64,000 nt of DNA, taken from Natronobacterium haloterrestre (GTDB taxonomy: Archaea; Halobacteriota; Halobacteria; Halobacteriales; Natrialbaceae). A model generated the notes under the pieces. The model worked only from the letters and a program-made list of their open reading frames with translations. It did no database searches and was not told the origin of the DNA. Location of the stretch: the NCBI RefSeq assembly GCF_900112205.1, contig NZ_FOKW01000001.1:372001-436000 (forward strand). Reading direction: 5' to 3'. A program made the translations under genes and the position numbers. This document shows, in pieces, positions 53,253 to 56,739 of the stretch (position 1 is its first letter; each line of letters starts with the position of its first letter).

Positions 53253-54248
53253 TCAGTCCGCGGCTTCCGCTTCCGCCGGCGGCAGGACGCTGTCGAGATC
53301 GACGTCCCTGGCTCCGGCCCGCAGGCGGTACTCGCCGTCCTCGAGCGCGACGACGTCCTCGTGGCGGAGGTGATCGAGGTGGGCGTAGGCCTCGCCGGGG
53401 CCGTGGACGATGTGGATCCCCTCGAGGTCACCGAAGAGGTGGGCGCTGACGGTCCAGGCGTCGGCCGGTCCGTGCTCCTCGAGCACGTCGAGGACCTTCT
53501 CGGTGCGCTCGCGGTGGTGAGCGAGGATCGTCAGCGCGCGGTCGGTCGGCTCGTCGATCGGATCGCGGTGGCCGGGCCAGACGCGGTCGTAGTCCCGGCC
53601 AGCGATCGTCCGCAGCGTCTCGAGGTACTTCGCGAGCGGGCGGTCGACGCGGACGTCCGCGCCGCCGACGTTCGGGGTGTAGACGGGGAGGACGGCGTCG
53701 CCGACGAACGCCTCCGATCCGTCGTCGATCTCGAAACAGCACAGTCCGGCCGCGTGACCCGGCGCGTGGACCGTCTCGAGGCGGCGGCCGCCGACCTCGA
53801 GGACGTCGCCGTCCTCGATCGGCGTCGCGTCGACGGGGTCGCCCTCGATTCCGTCCGCCGCCTCGAGGAAGGCCAGCAGTTCCTCCCTGGGGCCCTCGGG
53901 GACGCCCCAGTCCTCGAGGTACTCCCGTCGGCGTCGGTCGAGGGCCTCGAGGGCCTCGGAATCTCCCTCGACGAGCGGGGCGTCGGCCTCGTGGACGTAC
54001 ACCGTGGCGTCGCTTTCGGCCTGGATCTCGCCGGCCAGTCCGGCGTGATCGGGGTGGAAATGGGTGAGAACGACGTCGTCGACGTCGGCGAACTCGTAGC
54101 CGCGTTCGGCCAGTCCGTCACGGAGGTCGGCGCGGACGTCCGGCGTGGCGATTCCGGTGTCGACGAGCGCGAGCGTGTCCTCGCCCGCGAGCACGTAGGC
54201 GTTGTTGTGCCCCTCGAACTCGTCGTTGCCCAGCGAGATGCGGTCCAT
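53253..54248 (-). CDS. MBL-fold metallo-hydrolase
   Basis: 331 residues. The metal motif 'VVLTHFHPDHAGLAGEIQAE' (HxHxDH) is at ~60-80, with the later ligand His in 'ETVHAPGHAAGLCCFEIDDG', Asp in 'FVGDAVLPVYTPNV' and the final 'DRVWPGHRDPID'. The C-terminal part (~240-331) is helical with 'AHLDHLRHEDVVALEDGEYR', the winged-helix-like extension seen in LACTB2-type hydrolases. Substrate unknown. A TATA-like TTAATAT at 54270-54276 lies 25 bp before the ATG. Confidence 0.9.
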   Translation of the reverse strand: MDRISLGNDEFEGHNNAYVLAGEDTLALVDTGIATPDVRADLRDGLAERGYEFADVDDVVLTHFHPDHAGLAGEIQAESDATVYVHEADAPLVEGDSEALEALDRRRREYLEDWGVPEGPREELLAFLEAADGIEGDPVDATPIEDGDVLEVGGRRLETVHAPGHAAGLCCFEIDDGSEAFVGDAVLPVYTPNVGGADVRVDRPLAKYLETLRTIAGRDYDRVWPGHRDPIDEPTDRALTILAHHRERTEKVLDVLEEHGPADAWTVSAHLFGDLEGIHIVHGPGEAYAHLDHLRHEDVVALEDGEYRLRAGARDVDLDSVLPPAEAEAAD

Positions 54249-54310
54249 GTCCCAGCCAATCGGCCTGACGATATTAACTCGAGGGGTATCGGAACGATAC
54301 GTCGTTACCC

Positions 54311-54333
54311 GTTCCGGTCGGAAACCGGAACGA
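54311..54333 (-). terminator. Perfect hairpin downstream of the displaced gatB 3' end
   Basis: CGTTCCGGT and ACCGGAACG are perfect 9 bp arms around a 5 nt loop. It lies 38 bp past the stop codon of the gatB-end copy at 54381-54435. No T-run follows. It could be the original gatB terminator, left behind when the insertion occurred. Confidence 0.55.
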
Positions 54334-54370
54334 CGCGCGGACCGATCGGTCTCGAGGCCACGGGCACGCC

Positions 54371-54440
54371 GTTAGTCGCTCAGTTCGGCCCGCAGCAACT
54401 GGTTGACATCGCGGGGATCGGCGCTGCCGCCGGTCGGTTT
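54371..54440 (-). pseudogene. Displaced copy of the gatB 3' end
   Basis: 54381-54435 matches the gatB 3' end at 55255-55309 at 52 of 55 positions. On the minus strand it reads TGGSADPRDVNQLLRAELSD then TAA (stop at 54373-54375), against TGGSADPGDVNQLLRAELEG in gatB. Homology stops upstream of Thr-Gly-Gly. The ends differ and each has its own stop, suggesting that one is an older original and the other came with an insertion; the order cannot be fixed from one genome. Confidence 0.8.
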
Positions 54441-54493
54441 TCCCACCTTTTTCTCGTCGGGTTGCTCGCGATGCTCGCACCTACTTCTCGAAA

Positions 54494-55207
54494 AATCCGG
54501 AGGCGCTGTTGAAATCCTTGTCTAGTGATAGGTTTCAGTAGCTATGCTGAATAGAGGGCGCGAATGTCGCACGAGTCAAAATTTAATCAACAATAGCAAC
54601 GGTCAATCAAAACAGGAATATTTGCTCCTTATTTTCTCCAGAAAGTATTTACTGATTGTAGAGATACATACCCTATGCAACGGCGTACCTTCGTTTGGGG
54701 CACGATTCCTCTCTGTTCGGGGCTTGCTGGATGTTCTAAGGTGTTCTCTGATTCCCCGATGCTCTCTGTGACCGTCTTTAACCAGACCGAGAACCCCTAC
54801 ACAATCGAAATGGCTTTCTCACGAACGGATGGAGACCTCTCCAGAAGCGAAGCCCGAGTGTTCTCAGGACGGATCAATGTTGAGCCAGACGAACCAACGG
54901 TTCGTAAAGATATTGCTGAACGACAGCAGTATCTTATAGAATACAGCCTCTATGAGGACAATACCAGTCTAAAAGAACAAGACAGTTTCTACTACTATCC
55001 GGGTGACGAGTATGAGAGTGGTGGTCTGGCGTTTGATATCCGTTCAGGGGGAATTCTGACACGAAGGTGGGCTCCTTGAACGATTACTGAGCGGATGAAT
55101 TATATCAAGGTGCTTGTAATAAACAACATCGGTTTACTGCACCCATCCTCTGTATTCAGCAGGCACCCCTTATCATCTACTGAAGGTTTCAAAAGAGCCA
55201 ATCTGGA
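54494..55207. mobile_element. Transposon-like element carrying a lipoprotein gene, without transposase
   Basis: Left end GGCGCTGTTGAAATCC (from 54502) and right end, read inward, GGCTCTTTTGAAACCTTC (from 55199) are imperfect inverted repeats (13 of the first 17 match, plus a shared GATGATA-like stretch). Outside them are AATCCGGA (54494-54501) and AATCTGGA (55200-55207), an 8 bp duplication with one difference. The interior (~698 bp) is AT-rich and codes for one lipoprotein; no transposase is present. 8 bp duplications are made by IS1595- and ISH6-type transposases, so mobilisation in trans is possible (inference). Confidence 0.6.
54675..55079 (+). CDS. Small Tat-type lipoprotein, cargo of the insertion element
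   Basis: 134 residues. The signal MQRRTFVWGTIPLCSGLAGC has twin arginines and a lipobox Cys (~20). The mature part is beta-rich: 'MLSVTVFNQTENPYTIEMAF', 'RSEARVFSGRINVEPDEPTV', 'YLIEYSLYEDNTSLKEQDSF' and ends 'RSGGILTRRWAP'. Codon use is far more AT-rich than in the rest of the window, a sign of transfer. The fold may be an Ig-like or calcium-free beta sandwich. Function unknown. Confidence 0.75.
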   Translation: MQRRTFVWGTIPLCSGLAGCSKVFSDSPMLSVTVFNQTENPYTIEMAFSRTDGDLSRSEARVFSGRINVEPDEPTVRKDIAERQQYLIEYSLYEDNTSLKEQDSFYYYPGDEYESGGLAFDIRSGGILTRRWAP

Positions 55208-55245
55208 CCAAAAAGCCGAACGCTCGCTTTGCTCCCGTTCGGGAG
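55208..55245 (-). terminator. Intrinsic-like terminator after gatB
   Basis: On the coding strand, after the gatB stop, CTCCCG-AA-CGGGAG (55232-55245) and the larger CCGAACG/CGTTCGG stem (55216-55222 and 55236-55242) are followed by GCTTTTTGG. A hairpin plus T-run is a normal haloarchaeal transcript end. The transposon-like element begins just beyond this site. Confidence 0.6.
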
Positions 55246-56739
55246 TTACCCTTCCAGTTCCGCCCGCAGCAACTGGTTGACGTCGCCGGGATCGGCGCTG
55301 CCGCCGGTCTTTTGCATCACCTGGCCTACCAGGAAGTTGATCGCGCCGTCGTCGCCCGACTCGTAGTCCTCGACCGCGCCGGGGTTCTCGTCGATCGCTT
55401 CGACGACCGCCTGCTGGACCTCGTCCTCGTCGGTCTTGCCCAGTCCTTCCTCCTCGACGATCTCGTCCGGCGACGCGCCGTCGTCGAGCATCGACCGGAG
55501 AACCGTCTCCCGGGCGTTCTTCGCCGTGATCTCGTCTTCCGCGACGAGTTCGACGAGGCGGGTGACCTCCTCGAGTCGGCCCTCCATCTCCGTAATTTCC
55601 ATGTCGCGGTAGTTGAGTTCGCCCAGCAGGTTGTCCGCGACCCAGGTCGCGGCGAGGTCGGGGTCGAACTCGCCCGCGACGTCCTCGTAGAAGTCCGCGA
55701 CCTGCTTCGTGGAGGTGAGTTTGGAGGCGGCCTCCTCGCTCAGGCCGTACTCCTCCTGGAACCGCCGGCGGCGGGCGCGGGGCAGTTCCGGGATCGCGAT
55801 CTCCGCTTTCCACCCCGAGACCTGCAGCGGCGGGAGGTCGGCCTCCTCGAAGTAGCGGTAGTCCTTCTCCTCTTCCTTCGAGCGCATCGAGACCGTGATG
55901 CCGCGGGACTCGTCCCAGTGTCGGGTCTCCTGCTCGACCGCGCGGCCGCGCTGGATGGCGTTTTTCTGCCGGGTCTCCTCGTAGGCCAGGGCCTTCTGAG
56001 CGCCCTTGTGACTCGAGATGTTCTTGACCTCGGTTCGGTTGGCGGCCTCGAGGGCGTCGCCGTCGATCTCCTCGGCGTCGCCGTCGATCTCCTCCTCGGG
56101 GATGATCGAGAGGTTGGCGTCGATACGCAGGCTGCCGTCGCGCTCGGCGTCGAAGACGCCCAGGTATTCGAGCACCTCCTCGAGTTCGGCGAGGAAGGCC
56201 CGCACCTCGTCGGGGCTGCGGAAGTCCGGCGCGGTGACGATCTCCATCAGCGGCGTGCCGGCGCGGTTGTAGTCGACCAGGGTGTACTCGGCGGTGTCGA
56301 TGCCGCCACCGCCGCCGACGTGCTGGAGGCTGCCCGGGTCTTCCTCGAGGTGAGCGCGCTCGATCGCCACGGTGCGGCGGTCGCCTTCGACCGAGATCTC
56401 GAGTTCGCCGTCGGCACAGATCGGCTCGTCGTACTGGGTGATCTGGAAGTTCTTCGGGAGGTCCGGGTAGTAGTAGTTCTTCCGGTGGAACCGGGTCTCC
56501 TCGGGAATGTCGGCGTCGATCGCCTTGCCGATCTTCACCGCGGCCTCGACCGCGCCCTCGTTGAGTACCGGGAGCGCGCCGGGCAGGCCGAGACAGACGG
56601 GACAGACGTTCTCGTTCGGCTCGTCGGTCGGCTCGGTCGAGCAGCCACAGAAGATCTTCGTGTCGGTCTCCAGCTGGACGTGGACCTCGAGGCCGATGAC
56701 GGTCACGAGGTCGCCCTGCTGGACGGTTTGGGCAGTCAT
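55246..56739 (-). CDS. gatB: Aspartyl/glutamyl-tRNA amidotransferase subunit B
   Basis: Acts with GatA and GatC to convert Asp-tRNA(Asn) and/or Glu-tRNA(Gln) to the amides. 497 residues from the ATG at 56737-56739 (MTAQTVQQGDLVTVIGLEVH). The kinase-like domain has 'VIGLEVHVQLETDTKIFCGC' (Cys pair) and 'CPVCLGLPGALPVLNEGAVE', with 'RKNYYYPDLPKNFQITQYDE' (~90). The helical tail (~300-497) contains the tRNA-binding YqeY-like domain. A near-copy of the last 18 codons lies at 54381-54435, beyond the inserted element. Confidence 0.95.
   Translation of the reverse strand: MTAQTVQQGDLVTVIGLEVHVQLETDTKIFCGCSTEPTDEPNENVCPVCLGLPGALPVLNEGAVEAAVKIGKAIDADIPEETRFHRKNYYYPDLPKNFQITQYDEPICADGELEISVEGDRRTVAIERAHLEEDPGSLQHVGGGGGIDTAEYTLVDYNRAGTPLMEIVTAPDFRSPDEVRAFLAELEEVLEYLGVFDAERDGSLRIDANLSIIPEEEIDGDAEEIDGDALEAANRTEVKNISSHKGAQKALAYEETRQKNAIQRGRAVEQETRHWDESRGITVSMRSKEEEKDYRYFEEADLPPLQVSGWKAEIAIPELPRARRRRFQEEYGLSEEAASKLTSTKQVADFYEDVAGEFDPDLAATWVADNLLGELNYRDMEITEMEGRLEEVTRLVELVAEDEITAKNARETVLRSMLDDGASPDEIVEEEGLGKTDEDEVQQAVVEAIDENPGAVEDYESGDDGAINFLVGQVMQKTGGSADPGDVNQLLRAELEG

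Follow-up and report, generated by a model that had tools for sequence, protein, structure and literature searches.

GENE CONTENT OF THE gatB LOCUS

The window, a stretch of 64,000 nucleotides from Natronobacterium haloterrestre (genome G000), contains an intact gatB gene whose 3' end (A) is repeated farther downstream (A'), in front of the intergenic DNA that leads to a metallo-hydrolase gene (Table 1). A repeat search aligned positions 54381-54448 with 55255-55322 at 87% identity, and both copies end in frame with a TAA stop codon (55246-55248 in A and 54372-54374 in A'). Thus, the near-copy of the gatB 3' end described in the earlier note is real, with three differences in its inner 55 bp, and the hairpin claimed near 54310-54333 is present as well. 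Since this pair was the sole local repeat detected in the 64 kb (scan for pairs with a length of 45 nt or more and an identity of 85% or more, lying at most 1.5 kb apart), the duplicate is explained neither by chance nor by base composition.

Table 1. Features of the gatB locus (positions in the window)
Feature	Position	Strand	Evidence or remark
gatB (Glu/Asp-tRNA amidotransferase subunit B), intact	55246..56739	-	Pfam GatB_N 3e-103, GatB_Yqey 2.7e-40
A, 3' end of gatB itself, in its reading frame	55246..55309	-	direct repeat
h1, terminator hairpin CCGAACG..CGTTCGG, then CTTTTTGG, 3' of the gatB stop	55216..55242	-	sequence
Repeat E, left part (CGGCTTTTTGGTCCAGATT)	55200..55218	-	matches the left end of E at other loci
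698-bp transposon/MITE-like element within E	54502..55199	.	ends GGCGCTGTTGAAA../..TTTCAAAAGAGCC, target duplication
134-aa ORF in the 698-bp element, lipoprotein-like start	54675..55079	+	no Pfam family
Repeat E, right part (TCCGGATTTTTCGAGAAG..CCCGACGAGAAAAAGGTGG)	54442..54501	-	covariance model R1, 44.3 bits, E-value 4.6e-9
A', second gatB 3' end, in-frame TGGSADPRDVNQLLRAELSD and stop	54372..54435	-	begins 6 nt past the E match
Native downstream flank of gatB, with the 54310-54333 hairpin	54249..54371	.	alignment with relatives lacking E
Metallo-hydrolase gene, intergenic DNA in front being that beyond A'	53253-54248		

When the 698-bp element is subtracted, the spacer between the two gatB ends consists of the gatB terminator hairpin h1 and one copy of a repeat, here called E. 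The earlier reading of the spacer, a cargo element within AT-rich DNA, therefore holds for the element (54502-55199) and not for the remainder, which is h1 plus E rather than anonymous sequence. The folding energy of this E copy was nothing unusual. The 698-bp element has the imperfect inverted ends and target duplication of a MITE or IS-derived element; the duplication measures 8 bp (AATCCGGA/AATCTGGA; 54494-54501 and 55200-55207, AATC(C/T)GGA with one mismatch). Stretches resembling its ends are present elsewhere in the genome, and no transposase was recognized among the ORFs between related ends on contig C24. The element entered E at a later step: genomes G035 and G139 carry the double gatB end without it, in agreement with the proposed order of two events, an integration or duplication followed by a transposition.

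DISTRIBUTION OF REPEAT E AND OF GENE-END COPIES

A first search with the 137-bp spacer between the double gatB ends of G035 (genus g5) gave matches in 29 of 61 genomes, many of them at unrelated genes. Most of the matches that we read had the same layout, i.e., a gene, its stop, a hairpin, E, and then a repeat of the final few dozen bases of the gene. Phage records searched with the G035 cassette yielded no match, and the plasmid matches of the cassette search were haloarchaeal replicons. In model searches, whose counts per genome are lower bounds, E was found in at least 117 of the 121 genomes of the family and in at least 171 of 195 genomes and 57 of 66 genera of the order. Among the 24 matching genomes of a phylum-wide sample, 21 fell within the order and the 3 outside it matched weakly (E-value, ~1e-5 to 1e-4); E is essentially absent outside the order.

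We collected 128 E arrays from the top of the family list and from the first searches, a set that is redundant by gene. A gene-end copy of 20 to 130 bp lay behind E in 82 of the 128, with a bimodal split. A' started 0 to 7 nt after E in 80 of these 82 arrays, and a sense ORF ended at most 200 nt upstream in 81; in the arrays without a gene-end copy, chance alignments were scattered, unlike this fixed junction. The hosts were mostly recurrent housekeeping genes (ileS, purH, gatB, etfA, hisF/hisH, and nuoI), the largest groups being those of a radical-SAM protein, ileS, purH, a KH-domain ATPase, a metallo-hydrolase, gatB, an etfA-like gene, hisF/hisA, and hisH, where some names were tested with Pfam and the rest were assigned by sequence recognition. 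Besides, 12 of 30 arrays from other families (two of the 30 being one locus) had a gene-end copy, again including ileS and nuoI. We conclude with high confidence that the E family and its gene-end copies are real and general. Our full-text search of the open-licence literature found no description of the repeat or its gene-end copies, and as far as that literature goes, the arrangement looks undescribed. That it arose as an artefact of assembly or annotation is practically negligible as an explanation, given that the same arrangement occurs in independent genomes with differing flanks and insertions.

These results also bear on the proposal in the earlier note that DNA had integrated site-specifically into the 3' end of gatB. 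Integrases that attach in gene 3' ends leave the gene intact and a second gene end beyond the insert. Loci with E resemble such sites in both respects, and a gene end displaced beyond an insertion, with relatives having an uninterrupted site, is what a remnant of such an event at gatB would look like. Unlike integrase sites, however, the spacers with E measured ~70 to 150 bp at the other loci read, and a single insert family recurs with different gene ends at many genes. Furthermore, no integrase gene and no larger element was found between the gatB ends, where the insert of the window holds one 134-aa ORF without a family, or at any other site read. Because the same spacer family with a gene-end copy lies behind many unrelated genes, the gatB duplicate is not the attachment site of one integrase, and the integration proposal is not supported; as a reading of the locus, we regard it as very improbable.

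STRUCTURE OF REPEAT E

E has the form of an imperfect but conserved hairpin that carries T/A tracts of its own, and it is laid out as a terminator hairpin, CTTTTTGGTCCAGATTTTT, a covarying stem, and AAAAAGGTGG (consensus, CGGCTTTTTGGTCCAGATTTTTCGAGGAGnGGTGAGCGAGCnnCGCGAGCGAACCCGACGAGAAAAAGGTGG). In the covariance model R1, built from 26 copies, compensatory-change cells numbered 41 versus 12.9 in shuffled alignments and the covariation score was 0.256 versus 0.097, in a test with shuffled and slid controls that is somewhat favored by the structure having been drawn from the same sequences. The outer stem pairs CCA/TGG, GTA/TAC, GCA/TGC, CGA/TCG, and GGA/TCC were compensated above the controls. 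Rfam models gave no match to nine E loci up to an E-value of 1. A long form of E (L242 to L271), which has two extra conserved hairpins between the T-tracts (TTTTTGGTCTCTTCGC..GCGAAGGTCAGCGAGAGC..GCTCTCGCCAGACAGATTTTT), behaves like the short form.

Judged by consensus and position, E has the makeup of a terminator, i.e., a hairpin and a T-tract just behind a gene. TTTTTC is found on both strands in many copies, and this motif is a strong terminator in Haloferax volcanii (PMC7237163). Since T-tracts lie on both strands of E and TTTTTC terminates strongly in that species, E is likely to be a two-way transcription terminator. The known archaeal T-tract and hairpin terminators (PMC7237163) likewise have a hairpin with a T-tract just 3' of the stop and TTTTTC, whereas E is a conserved repeat with a covarying stem and a gene-end copy behind it.

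PRESENCE AND ABSENCE AMONG RELATIVES

An uninterrupted gatB was indeed found in relatives, with a single end followed directly by the DNA that lies behind the second end in the window. The flank in the window aligned with that of Halobiforma nitratireducens (L313) from +15/+36 nt past the stop (score, 130 versus 22 for shuffled sequence), and gatB of genome G001 lies 151 bp before the metallo-hydrolase gene, as read from a table of gatB loci of which the plus-strand rows were used. In three of the four gatB cases with E, the sequence following A' aligned with that following the gatB stop codon in relatives lacking E. Our survey of 78 named gatB loci detected the duplicate in none and a broken E in one. 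In that locus, from Natrinema gelatinilyticum (L340), E is halved by an apparent deletion that took the gene-end copy with it.

The five gatB loci with E (the window, G035, G043, G139, and N. gelatinilyticum) require five changes on the gatB tree. In alignment their cassettes agree in the right arm of the h1 hairpin and in the T-tract and core of E, and the four cassettes that keep the E/A' junction (G000, G035, G139, and G043) also have this junction in common. On account of these common parts, the five cassettes are probably related by descent or transfer rather than being five unrelated insertions. We further surveyed 30 ileS and 30 purH loci, the stop being misplaced at a few of them: a gene-end copy was scored where E was present, and alleles without E stayed at background. 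Both states occurred within one genus and were patchy among close relatives. The ileS gene of G000 has a degenerate single E without a gene-end copy.

PROPOSED ORIGIN AND SPREAD OF THE CASSETTES

Several features of the duplicates bear on their origin. Tandem arrays of two to five E units exist. The duplicate starts sharply and ends raggedly, fresh copies remaining homologous beyond the stop, as far as h1 and E. At ileS, G001 has the order A-E-A'-E2 and G000 has A-E, with the same flank. Taken together, these observations favor a duplication of A-h1-E whose last copy has decayed, rather than a clean target duplication. Our favored explanation, to which we give about an even chance, is a terminator-linked tandem duplication with the plan A-h1-E-A' that spreads by homologous recombination, where A is the last 20 to 130 bp of the gene, h1 is a terminator hairpin with a T-tract, and A' repeats A. 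Duplication of A-h1-E would result when copying that traverses the terminator hairpins jumps back to within the gene's 3' end; the last E would then decay. Homologous recombination could carry the cassette from strain to strain, the gene body serving as one homology arm and A' as the other. Owing to the arm provided by A', a recipient would keep its own downstream DNA, as we infer from the patchiness, the native flanks, and the shared cassettes. Recombination between A and A' would restore the plain gene, and E itself may serve, or hitch-hike, as a two-way transcription terminator.

Our confidence is moderate for the spread by recombination and low for the origin by duplication at terminator hairpins. 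Upstream of A in purH of G098, we found neither a long foreign tract nor a clear breakpoint, the one stretch of unusual appearance being the final 60 nt, so that the case for recombination rests on the patchiness and the native flanks. Against the favored explanation, congeners lacking E at a gene usually have no E at all there, leaving few lineages with a single-E precursor, as at ileS of G000. Besides, different genera have A' beginning at one and the same position of a gene, which counts against the model because slippage alone does not demand a fixed start. Microhomology at the E/A' junction was weak (5.29 versus 4.87 by chance, with 21 of 500 as high), and the ordinary folding energy of the E copy in the window counts against the model as well. 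Comparison of A and A' with congeners lacking E did not single out either copy as the native one. In the radical-SAM gene, A' starts at different positions (about -32, -51, and -60), implying repeated origins.

A clean target duplication is central to a rather unlikely alternative, in which E moves as a non-autonomous element and inserts just behind genes, A/A' being an unusually long target-site duplication of variable length (20 to 130 bp). The sharp right boundary of E, its dispersal over many genes in at least 57 of 66 genera, its patchy presence, and copies with near-identical A and A' fit this reading; but the duplication has a ragged opposite end, often reaching into h1 and even into E, different genera use the same positions in a gene, and a non-exhaustive search revealed no autonomous partner or transposase. 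Target duplications of 20 to 130 bp are rare for known transposases. A MITE or IS-derived element has inverted repeats at its termini and a target duplication of short, fixed length, whereas E has direct repeats of 20 to 130 bp with one ragged end.

Within a genome, A and A' were more alike (0.89 to 0.96) than were the A' copies of different genomes (0.78 to 0.86) in the six larger gene groups, gatB not counted among them. For gatB, the likeness of A' copies between genomes was close to that of A and A' in a single genome, which counts against the favored explanation. The likeness within genomes in the other groups fits gene conversion or recurrent renewal. Such concerted evolution of A and A' would also be expected under ancient vertical inheritance, with one or a few origins per gene by terminator duplication, gene conversion between A and A', many losses through A x A' recombination, and no transfer. 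Gene conversion is efficient in polyploid haloarchaea, including Haloferax (PMC8223754), and gene-specific junctions are shared across families (for gatB, in G000, G035, G139, and G043). However, very many losses would be needed, as the duplicate was seen in 0 of the 78 surveyed gatB loci and the five rows with E mean five changes, and alternative A' starts within one gene point to more than one origin. We therefore consider inheritance without transfer unlikely.

If the favored duplication and spread by recombination hold true, most haloarchaeal genomes contain a repeat family that duplicates the 3' ends of housekeeping genes in a systematic manner. This would bear on annotation, on the evolution of terminators, and on the detection of recombination between distant haloarchaea. 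It would also exemplify, in nature, DNA that becomes established at an essential gene because it brings along that gene's end, and E cassettes may represent a new, harmless mode of settlement for short DNA at the ends of such genes. Since gene-end copies date and polarize each event, strain collections can be used to test for insertion, transfer, and loss. More tentatively, we suggest as a possibility that the E cassette is a new minimal kind of mobile DNA: a noncoding hairpin between two host gene-end copies that would be transferred by homologous recombination to the corresponding gene of another strain, would leave this gene intact, could be lost without a trace, and could pick up other gene ends, an example being the ileS end of Natronococcus occultus that lies fused behind a copy of a radical-SAM gene end.

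RELATION TO KNOWN REPEATS AND OTHER E COPIES

We compared E with short repeats described in haloarchaea. The SMR of Haloquadratum walsbyi (PMC3119063) is similar in being noncoding and haloarchaeal, in its length of ~110 bp, and in its unknown mode of mobilization; it differs from E in having terminal inverted repeats and no target duplication and in targeting PATEs and IS605-type elements. With gene-end copies in 82 of the 128 arrays and a position behind genes, E is not an SMR. PATEs and the ends of IS605-type transposons (PMC3119063) are, like E, short noncoding palindromes, whereas PATEs have near-terminal palindromes without a target duplication and E has one central hairpin flanked by gene-end copies.

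Five near-identical E copies without gene-end copies occur in G000 (L391 to L395; on C7, C16, C31, and twice on C24). They sit inside a MITE-like element with the ends ..GCTGAATACAGAG../..CTCTGTATTCAGC.., for which reason they were probably moved by ordinary transposition. Several single loci had other arrangements. L398 (G033:C1:2371200-2372400, reverse strand 400-690) has a radical-SAM gene end, E, a second radical-SAM end, and then, immediately adjoining, a 130-nt ileS 3' end, a chimeric gene-end array; this ileS end is closest to the ileS of the same genome, which is unlinked to the radical-SAM gene. L390 (G000:C8:121400-122800) has two tandem E-like units behind a gene, with a repeated stretch of 142 bp. 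At L287 and L303, from other families, E abuts the apparent 3' end of a converging tRNA gene, and at L040 (G000:C16:72699-75716) an E-like half adjoins the end of a tnpB-like IS1341-type element.
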